Source: a virus. Taken from it: a stretch of 46,890 bases of DNA. Position 1 is the stretch's first letter, and the number at the start of each line of letters is the position of its first letter. Of this stretch, positions 2,828 through 46,845 are shown piece after piece. The DNA lies in the IMG/VR virus record IMGVR_UViG_3300035209_000036, positions 1 through 46,890 of that record; one strand, given 5' to 3'. Below the pieces are notes generated by a model. It did not search any database. It was not told the origin of the DNA and saw nothing but the letters and a program-made list of their open reading frames with translations. A program made the translations under genes and the position numbers.

Positions 2828-2912
2828 CTTCGTCTCATGGTGAACACGCATGTTACTCGTGTTCAAGGCCGAAGTGAAGACCGCCTTAATATTCTTCACA
2901 AAACAAGTCCCC

Positions 2913-3509
2913 ATGCAATCACAAACAGTAAAAACGTTAGGTTACGAGATCCAGGTCCAAGTTCCGTCAAGTGTTGAAGAGTTTGACTCTTTGGCGAAGA
3001 AACAAGGAGTATGCCTTGAGCAGGCTATCCTCAACATTATCTACCGGAGCGTGCTCGCGAAGGTGCGGACCACCTTTGTGGAAGTCCTCGAAGAACAGAC
3101 GGGTATTGCCAGGCTGACCAAGGATTCTGGTAAGAAACGTAAAAACGAAGCAGGGGTGGAAGAACCCGTGCTTGTGTTCACCGAAACCGAGGGCGAGTTC
3201 GTCGACCGTGTGTTGGTCGAAACCAAATCTTCGAAGGAAAACTTCGAGGCTTTGATGGTCTCCGTTGCTTCAAAGGTGACCTTCGACCCATCCGAGACCG
3301 AAGCGAAACCTTCCGGCCCCAAGAAGGTCGCGCAGGCGTACCTCGATGCCGCCAAGACCATCATCGACAAGGGTCAAGGAGACTCTGTTGCTGCAAAACT
3401 CACCTCCAAACTTGGGTTCCCCGTCGAACCCACCATCGAATCCCTCGGTCGGGCCATTGCTGAGGACCAACGCAGAAAGAAGGCAGAAATCGCCGCCGAG
3501 TATGCATAA
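2913..3509 (+). CDS. Hypothetical protein, probably highly expressed (198 aa)
   Basis: I start at the ATG at 2913 (MQSQTVKTLGYEIQV); an upstream start at 2850 would add 21 residues that overlap a hydrophobic, unlike sequence. The protein is charged, with K/R-rich turns (SGKKRKNEAG) and a helical C-terminus ending DQRRKKAEIAAEYA. Codons are visibly more G+C-rich and C-ending than in neighbouring genes, which often marks high expression. A strong hairpin follows at 3571. The repeated pattern of helices suggests a nucleic-acid-binding or scaffold role, but no family is recognised. Confidence 0.75.
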   Translation: MQSQTVKTLGYEIQVQVPSSVEEFDSLAKKQGVCLEQAILNIIYRSVLAKVRTTFVEVLEEQTGIARLTKDSGKKRKNEAGVEEPVLVFTETEGEFVDRVLVETKSSKENFEALMVSVASKVTFDPSETEAKPSGPKKVAQAYLDAAKTIIDKGQGDSVAAKLTSKLGFPVEPTIESLGRAIAEDQRRKKAEIAAEYA

Positions 3510-12038: not shown

Positions 12039-12199
12039 ATAAGTCCCGCACAACCGTGCTAAAAGATCCGGGGTTAGGTCGTCCATTTTCTACTACCCTG
12101 CGCAAACGCGCGGAGCAAGTCCAACGCGAAGCCGGGGGTGTGGTGGTTACTCTTGGTGAAGCTATCAAAATTCTAATCACCAACCAGTCCTCGCAATGA
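11885..12199 (+). CDS. Hypothetical protein (104 aa)
   Basis: Begins inside the preceding gene in a different frame. The N-terminal 25 residues are Ser/Pro/Asn-rich. From QFTPEDLEGCLARLHDRKAD onward it is a well-formed helical protein ending VVVTLGEAIKILI. The stop overlaps the ParB/methyltransferase start in ATGA. The C-terminal VQREAGGVVVTLGEAIKIL recalls helix-turn-helix packing, but no family is recognised. Confidence 0.6.
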   Translation: MQNDPAPQSSSGNEPNSPRIVASPSQFTPEDLEGCLARLHDRKADEIFVIMNKSRTTVLKDPGLGRPFSTTLRKRAEQVQREAGGVVVTLGEAIKILITNQSSQ

Positions 12200-13695
12200 T
12201 TACCAGCACCAACGCTCTTCTTGTAGATTGTAACTTAATCGATGATTCCAACCGCATCCGTGCGGATTACTCCCATGTCGAAGAACTTGCTAATTCGATT
12301 AGCGACCACGGTCAGCTTCAACCTGTGGTACTTACAGCAGACTATAAACTTATTGCGGGAGGCTCACGCCTACGCGCGGTGCGTGATGTGCTCAAGCAGC
12401 CCCAAGTGCTGGCTGTTTTCATGGAGACTATGTCTGAAGATCGTCAGCGCATGTTGGAAGTTGAAGAAAACATCCGTAGGAAAGATTTTACCTGGCAGGA
12501 ACGTGTACTTGGAGTTGCGCGTGTACACGAACTTAAATTCCGCGATTCCATTTTGTCTGGAAATACAAAGCGTTGGACTCAACAGCAAACGGGGGAACTT
12601 CTGGGACAATCAGTGGGAAATGTCTCAAACTGTATGTTACTTGCTTCCCTCATTCGAAGTAATGACACTGAGATCATTGCCAGCGCAGGACCAACAGAAG
12701 CATTAAAGGTTGTTCTTCGTCGGAAGGAAGAAGAAGCGGCGAGGAGACTAGCGAAGTTGACCTTGGGTTCCCAACTAGCACCATCAATTGATGTAGTTCA
12801 ACAACTAGCCACTGCTGTTGATCCCGAGTCTTTTTTTACCACTCTCCCTGCCAGCACCACCATCTTTCGTAGTGGAGAGGGGATAGTAGCACCAAGTCTG
12901 GTAGACGAAGACCCCGGTGCACCAACACCTACCGAACCCTCGCCCACCGAGGAGTGCACCATCATCTCGTTAACTAAAATCTTATTTCAAGGGTCTTGTA
13001 TAGACCATATGACCAATGGAATCATCCCACCAGAATCCATCGACCACATCATCACTGACATGCCATTCGGAATTGATATGTCAATGTTGTCACAACCAAA
13101 TAGCGGAATGGATGTTAGAGCTACAGCCAACGAACACACCGTTGAAGGCAACGTTGAGATTATGTCTGCGTTGTTTCCAGCAGCGTACCAAGTTCTCAAA
13201 CCCAATTCTTTCTTCGTGTTATGGTATGACCTTGACTACCATCAATTTTTACAAGATAGAGCGCGTGCGGCAGGATTTACAGTCCAACGGTGGCCAGTGT
13301 TTTGGATTAAAACTCACTCCTGTCTTAACCAAGCGGCCCAGGTTAACTTTACTAAAGCTGTGGAAACTTGTATGGTCTGTCGTAAGGGAAATCCAACACT
13401 CGTAACACCACAAAGTACTAACTTCTGGATGGGGTCAAATGAGGACACCAAAAAAAGATTCGAGCACCCGTTCGCAAAGCCGGTTAAACTCTGGCAGTGG
13501 TTGGCCCGAGCGGTGGCGATCCAAGGTCAAACCATCTATGATCCTTTTGCTGGAGTTGGGTCTGGTCCTATTTCTTTTTTGGAGGCTGGTTTTGGTGTGG
13601 TGGCAAGCGAACTCAACCCCGATCACTACTCCCGATTGGTTATCAACACGGCCAAGCATTACACTTCCGCGTTTAAACATGTCAAGTTTACTTAA
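12196..13695 (+). CDS. ParB-like domain fused to an N4/N6 DNA methyltransferase (499 aa)
   Basis: Residues 1-110 are a ParB/Srx-type domain: LADSISDHGQLQPVVL-like strand-helix, AGGSRLRAV near residue 54, and EENIRRKDFTWQERV near residue 92. A helix-turn-helix follows (TQQQTGELLGQSVGNVSNCM). After a low-complexity linker (about 205-255), an adenine/cytosine-N4 methyltransferase starts: catalytic motif IV TDMPFG at 287-291 and the S-adenosylmethionine-binding motif DPFAGVGSG from D449. The motif order (IV before I) is that of the beta class. The motif is DMPF instead of the usual DPPY/F. It probably modifies phage DNA against host restriction, with the ParB part guiding binding. No restriction enzyme is nearby. 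Confidence 0.8.
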   Translation: MITSTNALLVDCNLIDDSNRIRADYSHVEELANSISDHGQLQPVVLTADYKLIAGGSRLRAVRDVLKQPQVLAVFMETMSEDRQRMLEVEENIRRKDFTWQERVLGVARVHELKFRDSILSGNTKRWTQQQTGELLGQSVGNVSNCMLLASLIRSNDTEIIASAGPTEALKVVLRRKEEEAARRLAKLTLGSQLAPSIDVVQQLATAVDPESFFTTLPASTTIFRSGEGIVAPSLVDEDPGAPTPTEPSPTEECTIISLTKILFQGSCIDHMTNGIIPPESIDHIITDMPFGIDMSMLSQPNSGMDVRATANEHTVEGNVEIMSALFPAAYQVLKPNSFFVLWYDLDYHQFLQDRARAAGFTVQRWPVFWIKTHSCLNQAAQVNFTKAVETCMVCRKGNPTLVTPQSTNFWMGSNEDTKKRFEHPFAKPVKLWQWLARAVAIQGQTIYDPFAGVGSGPISFLEAGFGVVASELNPDHYSRLVINTAKHYTSAFKHVKFT

Positions 13696-13902: not shown

Positions 13903-16407
13903 ATGGTCCCTAACCTCTTCCCTTCTCGCCCACCTACCGACTTCCGACTCGCCATCGTTGGCGACTGTCCTTCGCGGGACGAGGAGGTGATAGGAACCCC
14001 TTTCTGCAGTGCCGCTGGAAATCTCCTTCGTAGTGTACTTGGTCAAACAGGTACAATCACTAGCATGTGTTATTTTGGTAACGTTTGTCAAACCAACGTG
14101 GTTGACCTTGGCGAGGTTAGTTGGCAAGATGATAAAATACAAAATGGACTCTCCCAACTCACTCTCGACCTTCACGAATTTAGACCTAACTGTGTTTTGG
14201 CTTTGGGACGGTACGCACTCCGTGCATTTAAACCTTCTCTTGTTCGTGCCACTAAGTCAGGAGACTTTATCGCTATCGGCAACTACAGGGGAAGTATTTA
14301 CTGGGCTGAAACCGAAGTCCTACCTCACGACAACAGAAAACTTGTTGCTTGTTACCACCCTACGTACATCCAACAACAGTACGGAGACCTACCTCTCTTC
14401 AAATCCGACGTTGCCAGAGCAGTCAAGCAGTCTAAGTTTCCCGAGCTACGATCAACCGAACGTGTTATTAATATCCGTCCAGCGCGGACAGAGGTACTTA
14501 TTTATCTTGACAACATTCGTGCCAGAAGATTAAAAACCGCGTTCGACATCGAGGGTTATGCGGACAACATAGGAGTAACCATGATTAGTATTGCGGTTAC
14601 TCCCCGCGAGTGTTTAGTCATTCCTTTCTTTATTGACGGCCAGCATTATTGGTCGTTGGAAGACGAGATTCAAATTTGGAAAGCACTGGCGGAGTATTTG
14701 TTTGATCCCGAGTGTGAGAAAACCTGCCAAGCGGCTATGTATGAGTTATTTGTTCTCGCCTGGTCTCATAGGTTTCGTATCTCTGGTGTTACCTCTGATA
14801 CCATGTTCAAACACGCTGAGTTGTCTCCCGAGATGGAGAAGTCGCTAGCCTTGCAAACCTCTATCTACACCGAAGAACCGTTTTATAAAGACGAAAGGTT
14901 ATCGGATAACACAGACACAAAATTGCTTTACAACGGTAAAGACTCCTGCGTTACCTACGAATCCGACGAGGTAGTGGAAACCTACTTACGTAAATACCCT
15001 CGTTCTTACGAACACTACCAATTCAACATGTCCCTACTCCCTGTAATAAACTACATGGGACTACGAGGCTGTGCCTTCAACCGTGAACGTGCTTACGCCC
15101 ACCTTGTTCAAACTCAGCAACAAATTGACGAGTTAAACTCTAAAATGGAGGGAATGCTGGGAAGAAAGTTTAACGCCAAATCCGTTCCCGACAAACAATG
15201 GTTGCTCTACGACCACCTAGGTTATGAACCCTACAAAAAATATGGCAAAACCACCAAAGAAGAAGTCCTCTTACGTTACTATGCAAAGCACCGCGATCCA
15301 ATACTCAAAACCCTCATTGAACTTATTTCTGTCCGTACTCGCAAATCGGATATTGGAAAATTTGACACCGATCCCGACGGCCGTATTCGTTCCAATTATG
15401 ACCTCGTCGGTACTAGTACTGCCAGAATATCGTCTTCTGCTTCCTCAGCACGTTTTTATTATTTTACTAAATCAGGACTTGTCAAATGGGATAACACAGG
15501 TACAAATATGCAGAACGTCACTAAAGAACTACGCGACTGTTGTACCGCAGATAGCGCCGACCATGCCTTTTTCCAGTGTGATCTTTACGGCGCCGACGGG
15601 TGGACTGTTGCCGCCGACCTTGCGGCATTGGGGAATACCACCATGCTGGACGACTATCTTGCCGGCATCAAGCCAGCGAAAGTTTTGCTCCTTATGCTTG
15701 AAGAACACGAGCAAGGGAGAAATCCTGCAACTATCAACAACTTGGATAGAGCAGTCTTGCGCGAACGAACAAACGCCCTTAAATTCCCGGAAGGTCGTGA
15801 CGTGCATGGTAGACCGGGTGATTGGAAATATGTGTGTGCTAAGCGATGCCAGCATGGAACCAATTACGAAATGCAACCAGACAAACTCTCAGCAACCATA
15901 TTCAAAGACTCAGAAGGTTTAATCGACCTCACCACCCATGAAGCAGCCATCTACCAACATTTGTACAAGCTCAGGTATAATCCTCAAGCCCGTATTGATT
16001 GGGTACAGCGCGAGCTACGAGACAAAGGATATATTCAAACTGCGTGTGGATTTAGGCGACAGTTTTTTGGACTTAGAAGTCGCACAAACCCCGACCCAAA
16101 CATTGTACGTGAAGCACTTGCAGTTGAACCCCAAGCGATTACGACGTATTGCTGTAACGCAGCAGCCAAAAAACTTTGGTATGACCCAGATAACCGGACC
16201 TCTCGTAACACCTTGTTCATCGAACCCCTCCTCCAAATCCACGATGCCATCGCTGGACAGTTCGCTAGGAAACACATCGAGTTTGCAAGAGCAAAAATTC
16301 CCACCTGGTTCGACAACCCCATCACCATCCACGGTATCCAAATCCGAATCCCGTATGACGGAGGCTATGGGACAGACTGGCTTAATTGCCACGAAGGCCA
16401 CCTGTAG
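13903..16407 (+). CDS. Family A DNA polymerase with N-terminal uracil-DNA glycosylase-like domain (834 aa)
   Basis: Replicative polymerase. Residues 1-190 match the family-4-type UDG fold: VGDCPSRDE, PFCSAAGNLL, VLALGRYAL and CYHPTYI near the end of the domain. I see no Fe-S cysteine set. A 3'-5' exonuclease follows, with FDIEGY (D214, E216). The polymerase domain has motif A DLYGADG with D560, motif B AKRCQHGTNYE with K647 and H651, and motif C QIHDA with H780 and D781. Compared with E. coli Pol I, the motif A Glu position is Asp and the Phe762 position is His. UDG-PolA fusions are known from SPO1-like phages. The 3' end overlaps the next gene by about 50 bp. Confidence 0.88.
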   Translation: MVPNLFPSRPPTDFRLAIVGDCPSRDEEVIGTPFCSAAGNLLRSVLGQTGTITSMCYFGNVCQTNVVDLGEVSWQDDKIQNGLSQLTLDLHEFRPNCVLALGRYALRAFKPSLVRATKSGDFIAIGNYRGSIYWAETEVLPHDNRKLVACYHPTYIQQQYGDLPLFKSDVARAVKQSKFPELRSTERVINIRPARTEVLIYLDNIRARRLKTAFDIEGYADNIGVTMISIAVTPRECLVIPFFIDGQHYWSLEDEIQIWKALAEYLFDPECEKTCQAAMYELFVLAWSHRFRISGVTSDTMFKHAELSPEMEKSLALQTSIYTEEPFYKDERLSDNTDTKLLYNGKDSCVTYESDEVVETYLRKYPRSYEHYQFNMSLLPVINYMGLRGCAFNRERAYAHLVQTQQQIDELNSKMEGMLGRKFNAKSVPDKQWLLYDHLGYEPYKKYGKTTKEEVLLRYYAKHRDPILKTLIELISVRTRKSDIGKFDTDPDGRIRSNYDLVGTSTARISSSASSARFYYFTKSGLVKWDNTGTNMQNVTKELRDCCTADSADHAFFQCDLYGADGWTVAADLAALGNTTMLDDYLAGIKPAKVLLLMLEEHEQGRNPATINNLDRAVLRERTNALKFPEGRDVHGRPGDWKYVCAKRCQHGTNYEMQPDKLSATIFKDSEGLIDLTTHEAAIYQHLYKLRYNPQARIDWVQRELRDKGYIQTACGFRRQFFGLRSRTNPDPNIVREALAVEPQAITTYCCNAAAKKLWYDPDNRTSRNTLFIEPLLQIHDAIAGQFARKHIEFARAKIPTWFDNPITIHGIQIRIPYDGGYGTDWLNCHEGHL

Positions 16408-17055: not shown

Positions 17056-18273
17056 ATGAGCTTTCTTTCCGACTACCGCCTATACACTGATGGTACCGAA
17101 GCGCACCCCACATACCATACGTTTTCTGCGTTAGTCGCGCTGAGTAGTATCATCAGCCGCCGAGTATGGGTAGAACAAGGCTACTTCAAAGTCTACCCCA
17201 ACCTCTACGTTGTTTTGGTTGGTCCTCCAGGCAACCGCAAAACCAGTGCAATGTCAATTAGCAAAGGTTTAATCCGCGAATTAAAAGTCATCCCTTTCTC
17301 CGCTGAAGCCTCAACCAAAGAAAAACTCGTCCTCGATATGTTTGACCAAGAACGAGCGATCGAGAACATCCGTCCAGAATGGATAGCCCAAAAAATCTAC
17401 TCCCCTATGGCGGTGATAGTCACCGAACTCTCGGAATTTCTAGGCGCCAACTCGGTTGGTATGATTAACTTCCTAACCACTGTCTATGACCAAGATTTTT
17501 ACGAAACTCGTACCAAAAACAAAGGAGATGTTTTGGTGTCTGGTCCTTATCTTAATCTCCTCGCTTGCACTACTCCTGATTGGATTACTACTTATCTCCG
17601 TGGTGATGTGATTAGTGGGGGGTTTTCTCGTCGTGCAATTTTTGTACTCGAAACTGGTAAATCTGGTCGTAACCCCTTCCCACAAGTAACCCCCGAGGCC
17701 AGACTCGCCTGGTCCCGCATTTTAGACTACTCTCAAAAACTTCTAAAAATCCATGGACAATTTAATTGGGAACCCTCCGCACGAGCATTTTATTCTCAAT
17801 GGTATACAACTCTTGAAATGCCAACGGACGAAACTACCATTGGGTACTTTGAGACTAAGCACATGCAGTTACTTAAAATTAGCATGTTGCTTTCACTATC
17901 GGAATCAACAGATCTTATACTCAAAAAGGATCACCTATTATTCGGTCTCGAATTACTCAAACTGGCCGAAACCAATCTTTCGCGTGTTTTCTCCGGCATT
18001 GGTCGCAACGAACTTAACTCTGCGGCAACTAAAGTCGTTGAGTTACTTTCACGACTACCGTTTTCACAAGTTGTTCTCGACGGTAGGACCCTAAGTCTCC
18101 AACTCATCCCCGAGAAAAAACTTCGGGGCATACTTTTTTCCAGCGTAAACCAACAAGAGATGGATGGGATACTTCACCATCTAATCGATACAGATAAAAT
18201 TGCCAGAATCACTACACCTGGAGCCCCTGGCACCACAACCCGCACACTTATATACCTAAAACCAACAAATTAG
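17056..18273 (+). CDS. DUF3987-like replicative helicase/ATPase (405 aa)
   Basis: P-loop ATPase resembling the DUF3987 and RepA/DnaB-like proteins of phages and plasmids; probably unwinds DNA or loads the replisome for the polymerase upstream. The Walker A motif GPPGNRKT lies at residues 56-63 and the Walker B strand AVIVTE at 119-124, followed by LSEFLG. A later strand (YLNLLACTTPDW) matches the sensor region, and the GGFSRR motif may hold the arginine finger. The C-terminal 100 residues are helical with a winged-helix-like end. No primase zinc domain is visible. Confidence 0.75.
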   Translation: MSFLSDYRLYTDGTEAHPTYHTFSALVALSSIISRRVWVEQGYFKVYPNLYVVLVGPPGNRKTSAMSISKGLIRELKVIPFSAEASTKEKLVLDMFDQERAIENIRPEWIAQKIYSPMAVIVTELSEFLGANSVGMINFLTTVYDQDFYETRTKNKGDVLVSGPYLNLLACTTPDWITTYLRGDVISGGFSRRAIFVLETGKSGRNPFPQVTPEARLAWSRILDYSQKLLKIHGQFNWEPSARAFYSQWYTTLEMPTDETTIGYFETKHMQLLKISMLLSLSESTDLILKKDHLLFGLELLKLAETNLSRVFSGIGRNELNSAATKVVELLSRLPFSQVVLDGRTLSLQLIPEKKLRGILFSSVNQQEMDGILHHLIDTDKIARITTPGAPGTTTRTLIYLKPTN

Positions 18274-42947: not shown

Positions 42948-44420
42948 TTAGAAGTCTTGAATTTTGGGTAGATCTAAACTAGAACCAGAAATTTCCAACT
43001 CACGAACCGGACCAGTATCCGCGTCAGGATCAAACCACACAGGATCGTTGATAAAAATTCGATACATGCACTCCATGAGATGGTCATCGCGGTCAATAGG
43101 TTTGTTTTCTTTGTCATAACAATACCGATTGATTTCGTAGAGGAACTGCTGACACAAAGGAGAAACAAAAATGTTAGGTTTCTTCCACTCACCTTGCATT
43201 TTTAAAATGCCATGAGTCTTCGATTTCGACGCGGGGTCAACATAAAGCCCGTGTTTGGCTAGTTCTTCTGCGATGCAACTACCTGACACCGGATCACTGA
43301 TCCACGCAATAGGATCACATTTGACAGTAGAAAAGAAGTAGCTTTCTAACTTCCATTGCACGAGCTTAGATAGTTCTTCCGCCGAGCATTTAACCCAAAG
43401 CTCGTCAAAAATAAACCGTTGACCTAGTTGGTTAACCGCCACAAACAAAACCGCATGGGGAGTTTGGGGGTGTGGGTCGATGGCGGTGTAGATGATGTAG
43501 TCTCTGGGGGGCTTGTCATAAGACTCCCAGCCCCGAGGAACACCTGCAAGAACATGGCGATCATAAGAAAAGTTCTTGTACACCAACCCCGAGAGTTCCA
43601 ACGGTATCCCCGCAAGGCGGCATTCCTGTTCATCCGGGGTTAAGAGTTTTATAAACTCTTCAATAGATTCTTTCGTGAGGTGGGGGTTGTCTCTGGTGTT
43701 TCCTTGTGCCGCCCACAGCTGCTCCGGTGACCACTTGCTCTCTGTTCCTTTACGAGGAAAAAACATATCGTTAATCCAGAACTCAGAAAGGGGAGTAAGT
43801 GTAAACCAATCCGAACCTCCTCGGTCAATAAGTCCCCGAGCGTTGGCTTTGAACATCTGCTCTGGGCAGGGCTCGTCAACATGAATAAAATCCCAATCGC
43901 TCGACTCCGAGCCCATAGGATTCTTCTTAAACGACTCAACCGTATCGAATCTCAACATCGATCCGTTTTCGCCGATGATTTGTTCTATAGCACCAGAGTG
44001 ATTACGTTTGGTCTTCTTAACATACCCCCTTGGCGCCAGCTGCCAAATCTTTCCCAACGAAGACCCCAACCCATCCTGATTAGTCCATATCTCATGAACC
44101 TTATCCCAGTCTGCACAAATAACCAAACCTTTGTTGGGTCTTTGTGGTATGCCGGCCCTGCGGGCTACATCCGCGATAGGATACCACGGACGTTCACCTA
44201 ACATCCAGGCCAGATCTTCCGCACAGCCCATGGTGCTCTTACCAAACCGATTGCCGCTTCTCACCATTCTGTGCTTGCGCGTCCCCGCACGATGGAAAGA
44301 GTCCTGACCTGGATGGGGGACATAAAAAGCCAGACCAAAATCGCGTTTGATAGTAAGCCGTTGAGTCAACAACTGCTTCTCACGTAACAACGCGTATCTT
44401 TGTTCTTGAGTCGAGTTCAC
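42948..44420 (-). CDS. Large terminase subunit (490 aa)
   Basis: Packaging motor ATPase and nuclease. Walker A RSGNRFGKST at residues 54-63 and Walker B DFIHVDEP near residue 175, followed by TLTPLSEFW (motif III type). The RNase H-fold nuclease shows IYTAIDPHPQTPHAVLF, IFDELW and DRDDHLME. The GTG start (MNSTQEQRYALL) lies in a palindrome copy. The gene begins 10 bases after the small terminase stop. The length fits. Confidence 0.85.
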   Translation of the reverse strand: MNSTQEQRYALLREKQLLTQRLTIKRDFGLAFYVPHPGQDSFHRAGTRKHRMVRSGNRFGKSTMGCAEDLAWMLGERPWYPIADVARRAGIPQRPNKGLVICADWDKVHEIWTNQDGLGSSLGKIWQLAPRGYVKKTKRNHSGAIEQIIGENGSMLRFDTVESFKKNPMGSESSDWDFIHVDEPCPEQMFKANARGLIDRGGSDWFTLTPLSEFWINDMFFPRKGTESKWSPEQLWAAQGNTRDNPHLTKESIEEFIKLLTPDEQECRLAGIPLELSGLVYKNFSYDRHVLAGVPRGWESYDKPPRDYIIYTAIDPHPQTPHAVLFVAVNQLGQRFIFDELWVKCSAEELSKLVQWKLESYFFSTVKCDPIAWISDPVSGSCIAEELAKHGLYVDPASKSKTHGILKMQGEWKKPNIFVSPLCQQFLYEINRYCYDKENKPIDRDDHLMECMYRIFINDPVWFDPDADTGPVRELEISGSSLDLPKIQDF

Positions 44421-44430: not shown

Positions 44431-45075
44431 TCACGAAAGGGGAGGGGAAGATTCAGCTAGTCCGTTTTGTGCACGTAGTGCTTGGACTTGGCGTTCGAGG
44501 TCTTCGCAAGTGGCCCTCGCATCGTCGAGACCTTTGGCGGTGGATTCGGTTTCTACTCGGACAGTGGGTTTGCCTAAGAAGCGGTCTAAGAGGGAGTTCG
44601 CCGCGGTTATACGGGTAGCGGCTTTGGCCCCTTCGCTGTCACGGATAGCGACCAACGTCTCTAAACTCGGCATCACTTCCGCCTTCAAGAAGGTGTCCAC
44701 CGCGTCTCTGCCTGCAAGTTCAGTTTCCTCGATGAACTTGGTGCGGAACCAAGGTTGGCGGACAATTTGACAAACCCAGTTGTAGGAGTAGTCTAGGCGG
44801 TCAGCGCATTCTTGGTTGGTGAGGCCTTGGGCTTTTAGGTAGACCAGCATTCGGTGTTCTGGTCTTTCGGACTCGATGGCGAAGTTGGGTGGCTTGTCGT
44901 TATAAAGCCCTTTGCCTTCTTCATACATCTCTCGGGAAACTGGTGCGTTGCGAAGCTCGTTTTGGTCAAACATTTGTTTGTTGCCTACCATCGTCCTCGC
45001 CTGGGGTTTCACCGAAGCGGTGATGTATTCGATGCCTGAAGGGGTTTCAAACTTAGAAGGGTCGAGGTTGTCCAT
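44431..45075 (-). CDS. Small terminase subunit-like DNA-binding protein (214 aa)
   Basis: It lies directly before the large terminase and carries a helix-turn-helix: LKAQGLTNQECADRLDYSYN-type pattern near residues 78-100, followed by WVCQIVRQPWFRTKFIEE. A helical region (FLKAEVMPSLETLVAIRDSE) ends in a coiled coil. Small terminases recognise packaging sites and form rings. The packaging site may be in the neighbouring repeat-rich region. Start is ATG after TAAT. Confidence 0.7.
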   Translation of the reverse strand: MDNLDPSKFETPSGIEYITASVKPQARTMVGNKQMFDQNELRNAPVSREMYEEGKGLYNDKPPNFAIESERPEHRMLVYLKAQGLTNQECADRLDYSYNWVCQIVRQPWFRTKFIEETELAGRDAVDTFLKAEVMPSLETLVAIRDSEGAKAATRITAANSLLDRFLGKPTVRVETESTAKGLDDARATCEDLERQVQALRAQNGLAESSPPLS

Positions 45076-45447: not shown

Positions 45448-45599
45448 AGGGGAGGCTAAGAGTGTTGGGTGAGGTGAAGAAGTTTAGGTAGACCTAAGAA
45501 GGGCAGGCGGAGCCAAGAAGACCAGGAGAAATTAAGAAAGTTAGGGAGAGCTAATAGGTTGAGGGAGGACTAAGGAAGTTAGAGGATTCGCAGTGCAAA
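45448..45599 (+). repeat. 19-bp degenerate tandem array (8 units), iteron-like
   Basis: Units start at 45448, 45467, 45486, 45505, 45524, 45543, 45562 and 45581, spaced exactly 19 bases. Consensus AGGGRGANCTAAGAARGTT; the first-strand composition is strongly purine-rich. Units 3, 4, 6 and 7 are the clearest; the last unit is the most degenerate. A related unit is near 45393. No reading frame is maintained. This is typical of initiator-protein binding arrays (origin) or of multi-site operators. Confidence 0.8.
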
Positions 45600-45605
45600 T
45601 TAGTT

Positions 45606-45618
45606 GCTATTTCATAGC
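45606..45618 (+). repeat. Hairpin repeat GCTATTTCATAGC
   Basis: A 5-bp perfect stem GCTAT/ATAGC with loop TTC. The same 13-mer is at 46345-46357, and a close form is at 1168-1183. Each copy lies shortly upstream of a small + strand gene. Confidence 0.75.
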
Positions 45619-45635
45619 GGATGACTAAGGGTATC

Positions 45636-45987: not shown

Positions 45988-46002
45988 GCCTCTTAGCTTC
46001 GA

Positions 46003-46026
46003 GTGGGTGGGTGCGTGGGCCACCCA
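46003..46026 (+). repeat. 24-nt inverted repeat, left arm
   Basis: Matches the reverse complement of 46236-46259 at 23 of 24 positions. Both arms contain the inner GGGCCACCC string and GGGTG-type complement, so each arm can also fold on itself. The pair encloses 209 bases including T13 and C12. Confidence 0.9.
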
Positions 46027-46134
46027 TTCCCCCTCCTCTCTCGCTGGGGCGAAAAATTCGCGCCTAAGCGCAAAGCGCCAAGACTAAGAAAGAATCTCAC
46101 TAGCCACTAACCTCGGTTCTATATACTTATAAAA

Positions 46135-46167
46135 TTTTTTTTTTTTTCCAGTATACCCCCCCCCCCC
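46135..46167 (+). repeat. T13 and C12 homopolymer tracts
   Basis: T13 at 46135-46147 and C12 at 46156-46167, separated by 8 bases, both on the + strand. Preceded by ATATACTTATAAAA, an AT-rich element that could melt easily. Homopolymer lengths may carry sequencing error. Confidence 0.85.
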
Positions 46168-46235
46168 TACTAGTCGCTTGGTGTAGGGCCAATGCTTGCG
46201 GCATAAAAATCGCCCTAGAGATATATGGCCCTAGG

Positions 46236-46259
46236 TGGGTGGCCCACGCACGCACCCAC
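46236..46259 (-). repeat. 24-nt inverted repeat, right arm
   Basis: Reverse complement of 46003-46026 with one mismatch (C for G at arm position 8). It lies 160 bases before the gene at 46419. Confidence 0.9.
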
Positions 46260-46285
46260 TTCAAATCATTTGCATTGCAATTCAA

Positions 46286-46302: not shown

Positions 46303-46344
46303 AGCTCGCAAATCAATCCCAATAACCCTTTCCGCAATCAAATT

Positions 46345-46357
46345 GCTATTTCATAGC
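46345..46357 (+). repeat. Hairpin repeat GCTATTTCATAGC, second copy
   Basis: Identical 13-mer to 45606-45618, followed by CGAT as at 1168-1183. It lies 62 bases upstream of the gene at 46419. Confidence 0.75.
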
Positions 46358-46418
46358 CGATTCCTAGTCCTGACAAAGAAGCGCTAACGCGCAAAACAAA
46401 ATCAAATCAAAAATCATC

Positions 46419-46730
46419 ATGAATACCAACGAAACAACCAAAGAAGCCCAAGTCATTGAAATTAGAGATAATGTGTGGATAGCGACGAAGGAATACGTGA
46501 AAACGCGAAAGCTAACAGAGTTCACCAAGCTAGCCCATGCGGGAGCTATGGTTAACGCGTTATTAGAGCTGGGGCTCCTAGTCGAAGACATCGAAGGACA
46601 GATGACAACGAAAGAAACAGCGTTCCACGCGTTGTGTGAACTGGAGAACGGGAGTCAAGTCAGGCAAACCTTAGAGAAGGCCGGCGCAATGCCGAAGAAG
46701 GCAACAGCGTTGGTAGACTCCTACGTTTGA
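46419..46730 (+). CDS. Hypothetical protein (103 aa)
   Basis: Begins MNTNETTKEAQVIEIRDNVW; helical and mixed charge, containing VKTRKLTEFTKLAHAGAMVN and ENGSQVRQTLEKAGAMPKKA. Start ATG follows an AATC-repeat A-rich leader without Shine-Dalgarno. The position between origin-like repeats suggests an early gene, possibly binding the nearby DNA. No family is recognised. Confidence 0.65.
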   Translation: MNTNETTKEAQVIEIRDNVWIATKEYVKTRKLTEFTKLAHAGAMVNALLELGLLVEDIEGQMTTKETAFHALCELENGSQVRQTLEKAGAMPKKATALVDSYV

Positions 46731-46739
46731 CACTACCTC

Positions 46740-46845
46740 GAAACCAGAAAGAGGAATGCGCAGAGAGGAATGCGCAGAGAGGAATGCGCAGAGAGGAATG
46801 CGCAGCATTCACCCTAGCTTATCCTCCTCCTCCTCTTCTGGTTTC
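46740..46845. repeat. Inverted repeat enclosing the 14-bp tandem repeat
   Basis: GAAACCAGAA (46740-46749) pairs with TTCTGGTTTC (46836-46845); AGAGG/CCTC next to them extends the match with a one-base bulge. The region between holds the tandem repeat and a perfect hairpin GAATGC-GCA-GCATTC at 46796-46810, followed by CCTCCTCCTCCTC. Confidence 0.8.
46750..46805 (+). repeat. 14-bp tandem repeat, four exact copies
   Basis: AGAGGAATGCGCAG repeats at 46750, 46764, 46778 and 46792 without change. Because 14 is not a multiple of three and both flanks are non-coding, this is a DNA-level signal (initiator, packaging or recombination site) rather than a protein repeat. The last three copies are also seen at 1-42. 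Confidence 0.95.

Follow-up and report, generated by a model that had tools for sequence, protein, structure and literature searches.

A conserved inverted-repeat element at the divergence of late and early genes in a tailed phage: a candidate replication origin with tetramer arrays and a central A/T tract

Gene content and setting

The window is the whole 46,890-nt stretch analysed, positions 1 to 46,890 of the IMG/VR virus record IMGVR_UViG_3300035209_000036. It carries a podovirus-type genome in which a non-coding gap separates two divergent operons. On the minus strand, the small-terminase/late operon runs leftward through the genes for the small and large terminase subunits (TerS and TerL), portal and capsid, while the early/replication operon on the plus strand runs rightward from 46419, through the numbering origin, to 19068. 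The early block encodes a PD-(D/E)XK nuclease, an AAA_24 ATPase, a ParB-methylase, a uracil-DNA glycosylase (UDG)-polymerase A fusion, a DUF3987 protein and a ligase, and the phage has a replication set of its own, comprising polymerase, primase/helicase, nuclease and ligase.

Two of these proteins are domain fusions. The glycosylase domain of the family A polymerase (PF03167, E 2e-13) is an unusual fusion that may have a bearing on uracil in the phage DNA, and the product of 12196–13695 (plus strand) is a DNA methylase fused to a ParB-like domain, with relatives in Microcystis phage Mel-JY34 and the Desulfofustis phage. A 127-bp stretch is shared by the two ends of the window; as this looks like an assembly k-mer overlap, it is no evidence for physical ends. 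Beside the contig junction, the 14-bp unit AGAGGAATGCGCAG occurs in head-to-tail copies (46750–46805 and 1–42). GC skew along the genome gave no origin signal separable from gene orientation.

An inverted repeat around two homopolymer tracts

The divergent gap contains a non-coding element of 259 bp, bounded by two inverted arms and enclosing an AT-rich segment, a T13 tract and a C12 tract (Table 1). A sequence-only reading of this DNA had described a near-perfect 24-nt inverted repeat matching at 23 positions; a repeat search confirmed it and extended it by one base, to 25-nt arms complementary at 24 of 25 positions across a 209-nt spacer. The two tracts and the nested pair TAGGGCCA / TGGCCCTA that the same reading had listed are likewise present, the latter at about 46184–46191 and 46226–46233. 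T13 is the sole A/T run of at least 9, and C12 the sole C/G run of at least 8, in the entire genome. When a genome of 46,890 nt was simulated five times under a Markov-1 model, the best arm pairing at such distances was 19–20 of 25, against the 24 observed, and the element segment folds 7.25 standard deviations better than its dinucleotide shuffles (z = -7.25). The record contains no second copy of the arms.

An exact search of IMG/VR with the arm sequence, and a blastn search of the intergenic region against phages, both returned no match, indicating that the arms are not conserved as sequence. On either side of the element, 739 bp apart, lies an imperfect 33-bp direct repeat (79%; 45595–45627 and 46334–46366) containing TTGCTATTTCATAGC, whose copies are possible regulatory or binding sites.

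Table 1. Positions of the element, its parts, neighbouring genes and the corresponding elements of named phages
Feature	Genome	Position	Strand	Remarks
Left inverted arm	Source	46002–46026	+	AGTGGGTGGGTGCGTGGGCCACCCA; tetramers GTGG GTGG GTGC GTGG at 46003–46018
Right inverted arm	Source	46236–46260	-	Minus-strand reading AGTGGGTGCGTGCGTGGGCCACCCA; tetramers GTGG GTGC GTGC GTGG
Central AT-rich segment	Source	46120–46170		TATATACTTATAAAA-T13-CCAGTATA-C12; proposed DNA unwinding element
T13 tract	Source	46135–46147	+	A13 on the TerL strand; at 0.46 of element length
C12 tract	Source	46156–46167	+	
Large terminase subunit (TerL)	Source	42948–44420	-	
Small terminase subunit (TerS)	Source	44431–45075	-	HTH; phrog_2538 by 9 of 12 homologues
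Small ORF, 103 aa	Source	46419–46730	+	Adjoins element; homologues found in L008 and L084 only
219-aa early protein	Source	2850–3509	+	Homologue in RTNN-element phages with early region covered
Family A DNA polymerase	Source	13903–16407	+	N-terminal uracil-DNA glycosylase domain; phage replisome
DUF3987 primase/helicase-type protein	Source	17056–18273	+	Phage replisome
Element	Microcystis phage Mel-JY34	44129–44291		Inverted repeat; T9
Element	Caulobacter phage Kuura	43046–43248		A12
Element	Vibrio phage ABTNL-3	40665–40790		T8 at midpoint; arms are an AT-rich repeat
Element	Desulfofustis phage, record OP947158	43071–43417		A17, G9

The same architecture in related phages

Searches of IMG/VR with TerL recovered 4 loci and then 80, many of which have an inverted repeat of similar span upstream of TerL, typically by 1.5–1.8 kb and by up to about 6 kb, with arms that differ between loci. 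A search with the capsid protein added named phages that share the arrangement. Together, these searches revealed more than 20 related phages (at least 23 distinct in all) with the same architecture in a different sequence: two inverted arms spanning 126–347 bp, a run of 7–22 A/T near the midpoint and, in many relatives, a C/G run of 5–9. The related loci contain 131 A/T runs of length 7 or more, 28 of which are flanked by inverted arms, against 0.8 with shuffled flanks; the 28 correspond to about 21 distinct phages, as some were counted in several contigs, and include doubtful matches in L053 and in the second case from L084. In 22 of 23 cases the tract falls between 0.40 and 0.60 of the way along the element. 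Contig G001 (locus L004) has one arm at each end and breaks inside the core, at a C run. A degenerate element occurs at L017:5124–5431, with arms 72% paired and A10 at 0.53 of the span.

No convincing element was seen in several loci in which the region is covered (L048, L053, L063 and L081), nor in PaMx41, Tiera, Aeromonas P5 or CRP-810, and a scan of genome contigs found no bacterial relatives of TerL.

The sequence-only reading had regarded relatives lacking both arms as evidence against a function, and the comparison had the opposite outcome, the relatives carrying the arm architecture near the same place. It had also considered a small inserted element, which is not borne out. Terminal inverted repeats with no gene between them are what a MITE-like element would present, but a single copy in the genome, and relatives with the architecture in the same neighbourhood and unrelated arms, are difficult to reconcile with mobility; as the repeat also stands far above chance, by both shuffled flanks and simulation, a small mobile element or functionless chance repeat is extremely improbable.

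Tract orientation bears on a further alternative, in which recombination between the arms would flip the core and switch transcription of the divergent operons. The TerL strand carries the A run in most phages but the T run in L009, L010, L030, L036, L084, L107 and L109, and inverted arms are the substrate that such a switch needs. However, no recombinase was found nearby, the core holds no promoter-like site, the arms are entirely different between phages, and the tract is symmetric in position, so that its strand may simply not matter. An invertible segment is accordingly held to be highly improbable. The regulatory role preferred in the sequence-only reading gained no specific transcriptional support, no sigma-70-like site having been found inside the element.

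Tetramer arrays in the arms

Although the arms share no sequence, they share a pattern. In 17 of 21 elements tested, they are arrays of RTNN tetramers (GTGN, GTCN, GTAA, ATCA and others) in a fixed 4-bp register. The mean array score is 7.8 at period 4, compared with -1.4 to 0.5 at periods 3, 5, 6 and 7, and exceeds the 95% null in 16 of the 21. Mismatches between the two arms are concentrated at the fourth base of the tetramer (37 of 83 repeats, versus 17 of 83 at the third), with the register kept; RT was a search criterion, so the low mismatch at bases 1 and 2 is partly built in, which does not apply to the contrast between bases 3 and 4. In L015 all six fourth bases are unpaired, with GTG retained on both arms. 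By type, the 120 arm mismatches comprise 31 A-C, 27 G-T and 62 that are neither, and neither strand shows wobble tolerance. The fourth-base mismatches, the kept register, the L015 arms and the lack of strand-specific wobble together are better explained by a protein reading the repeats than by a hairpin or an RNA helix.

The same mismatches weigh on the idea of a structured non-coding RNA, about 260–330 nt long, with the arms as its terminal stem. The strong folding of the segment, and the existence of long phage RNAs with closing stems, would suit such an RNA, but the one-strand changes compatible with wobble pairing are not seen, element interiors have only the A/T tract and the GC-poor core in common, and Rfam gave no match near threshold (only Chlorobi-1, at 19 bits against a gathering score of 50), leaving this explanation very unlikely.

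RTNN is not kept in the outgroup elements (Mel-JY34, Kuura, Desulfofustis and Vibrio phages), which keep the inverted repeat and central tract. Conversely, at least 240 other viral stretches in IMG/VR contain six GTGN/GTCN repeats, and among those listed a single one, L342, combines them with an inverted repeat and a central tract; this locus encodes homologues of the nuclease (30% over 322 aa), the ATPase and the 219-aa early protein of the source phage. Period-4 arrays alone thus do not predict the architecture, which is specific to the lineage and not a property of simple repeats generally.

The sequence of the element turns over quickly while the architecture stays. Two of the related loci, L041 and L045, share 94% DNA identity across the terminase region, yet their elements are not matched by blastn; the arms of both consist of GTCG and GTAA units whose order differs between the phages, in both arms, and the left arm of L041 has one tetramer more than the right.

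A core prone to melting

Nearest-neighbour energies place the core at or close to the bottom of the stability ranking of 50-bp windows in each genome or locus. In the source genome, only 0.03% of positions are less stable than the lowest-ranking 50-bp window around the tract. Across the loci, 86% of 22 element tracts fall within the least stable 0.1% of their locus, compared with 10% of 51 other A/T runs (median rank 0 versus 0.08), and the flanks are also unstable when the A/T run itself is left out (p = 2e-8). The core is at or near the stability minimum in the five complete genomes, including that of Kuura, which is 63% GC.

Replication origin or packaging site

The element thus combines inverted tetramer arrays of strict period 4 with a central and exceptionally unstable core, in an architecture conserved in more than 20 phages despite unrelated arms, near the point at which early and late gene blocks diverge. 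The sequence-only reading had named origin and packaging structures among its guesses; a conserved cis-acting site is upheld, with an origin the best supported function and packaging the main rival. We consider it marginally probable that the element is the phage's replication origin, of a design not previously described. An array of short repeats in fixed register, and an AT-rich unwinding element beside it, are the hallmarks of iteron origins; the first is present, and the core is a strong candidate for the second. The phage's own set of replication genes also suits an origin. A putative phage-encoded oligomeric initiator would bind the RTNN arrays of both inverted arms, one unit to each 4-bp repeat, and melt the A/T-tract core halfway between them, at which the phage primase/helicase and family A polymerase could then be loaded. 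Protein reading of the arrays, and the start of melting and of replication at the core, are what we infer from this arrangement.

Pfam scans of most early proteins gave no match to a known initiator (HUH or SF3 Rep), and PHROGs gave none. This result counts against an origin, as do the GC skew, the outgroup elements that lack RTNN and the covered loci in which no convincing element was seen. The 219-aa early protein, which was not detected in the outgroup phages, is a weak candidate for the array-binding protein; its structural model (pLDDT 81.7) had no significant fold match. Two other candidates were set aside: the 103-aa ORF, kept by only two relatives, and the HTH of TerS, for which reading the arrays at 4-bp spacing is likely to be sterically unfavourable.

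The principal alternative is a packaging or concatemer-processing site, at which terminase, or a hairpin of the inverted repeat, would create the TerL-proximal virion end in or beside the element. An inverted-repeat hairpin has been proposed for T7 concatemers. The element often lies 1.5–1.8 kb upstream of TerL, and in LUZ24 and tf, more distant TerL relatives, the terminal repeats lie in the corresponding gap, with TerS on one side and the early genes on the other. In Kuura, PhageTerm mapping placed direct terminal repeats of 606 bp at the genome ends (PMC9959647). The left terminus, at 43208 of its record, lies inside the element, 55 bp past the A12 tract (43141–43152) and just ahead of the right arm (43219–43248), a position that suits packaging better than an origin. 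Kuura is, however, a single mapped case, and a non-coding gap is a likely place for ends in any event. Its 606-bp repeat is not delimited by the two arms, which span 203 bp, and a model in which they set its limits was abandoned over this difference in length. In addition, the end regions of LUZ24, tf, NV1 and T7 have no comparable inverted arrays or central tract, other genes lie between the element and terS in L030 and Mel-JY34, packaging does not require a central melting tract, and an HTH terminase would be unlikely to occupy every 4-bp repeat simultaneously. An origin at or near the terminus would give the Kuura observation too, and both functions may share the place. An origin is preferred mainly for the instability of the core, which is as expected of a DNA unwinding element, and a packaging site is judged rather unlikely.

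The 184-bp terminal repeat of LUZ24 (L111:1–184, L114:1943–2126) opens within a C run, and a G run lies close to its end. C/G runs, which recur in the elements described here, might mark nick sites.

A more general proposal, put forward tentatively and with less than even confidence, is that these elements represent a previously undescribed class of tailed-phage origin, in which a putative initiator reads RT every 4 bp in two inverted arrays around a central unwinding tract. The arrays would change rapidly and in concert, by slippage or by conversion between arms, under conserved spacing. Searches of open-licence papers found no description of such an element, and nothing specific on phage origins of this design.

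A few models apart, the origins of most virulent tailed phages are not known, since their sequences do not align; the element described here can be recognised from its architecture alone, even between phages whose arms have no sequence in common. It provides a defined candidate in isolates whose hosts are known (Microcystis, Caulobacter and Vibrio), making origin function, packaging and the tetramer-reading protein accessible to experiment, and the fast turnover of both arms poses the evolutionary question of how the two halves change together.

Comparison with known systems

Among phage origins, that of P4 carries iterons of the alpha protein, and the iterons of lambda and P4 are longer direct repeats. 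In lambdoid phages, according to a passage of PMC7466680, O protein iterons lie beside an AT-rich region. The present element resembles these origins in having short repeated sites, presumed to bind protein, beside a long A/T-rich melting segment, with a phage-encoded initiator assumed; it differs in its 4-bp repeats, in the symmetric arrangement of two inverted arrays about the A/T core, and in lying outside genes.

A parallel to the tetramers themselves is found in AAV and other parvoviruses, in which Rep subunits occupy successive GAGC tetranucleotide repeats (PMC2900306). Tandem tetranucleotides in a fixed 4-bp register, degenerate positions and inverted-repeat DNA are common to both, and the parvoviral site is a replication origin. 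Unlike that site, the element is built of RTNN and not GAGC, has arms about 210 bp apart as opposed to terminal hairpins, and belongs to a dsDNA tailed phage whose scanned early ORFs gave no HUH/SF3 Rep match in Pfam.

Herpesvirus oriS and the SV40 origin have inverted initiator sites around a central A/T tract. They share this layout with the element, their arms being much closer together and the viruses and initiators unrelated. Lastly, the terminal repeat regions of LUZ24-like and T7-like phages have a similar position, between terminase and early genes, and the Kuura terminus lies inside the element; the inverted arrays and central tract set the element apart from the end regions of LUZ24, tf, NV1 and T7.
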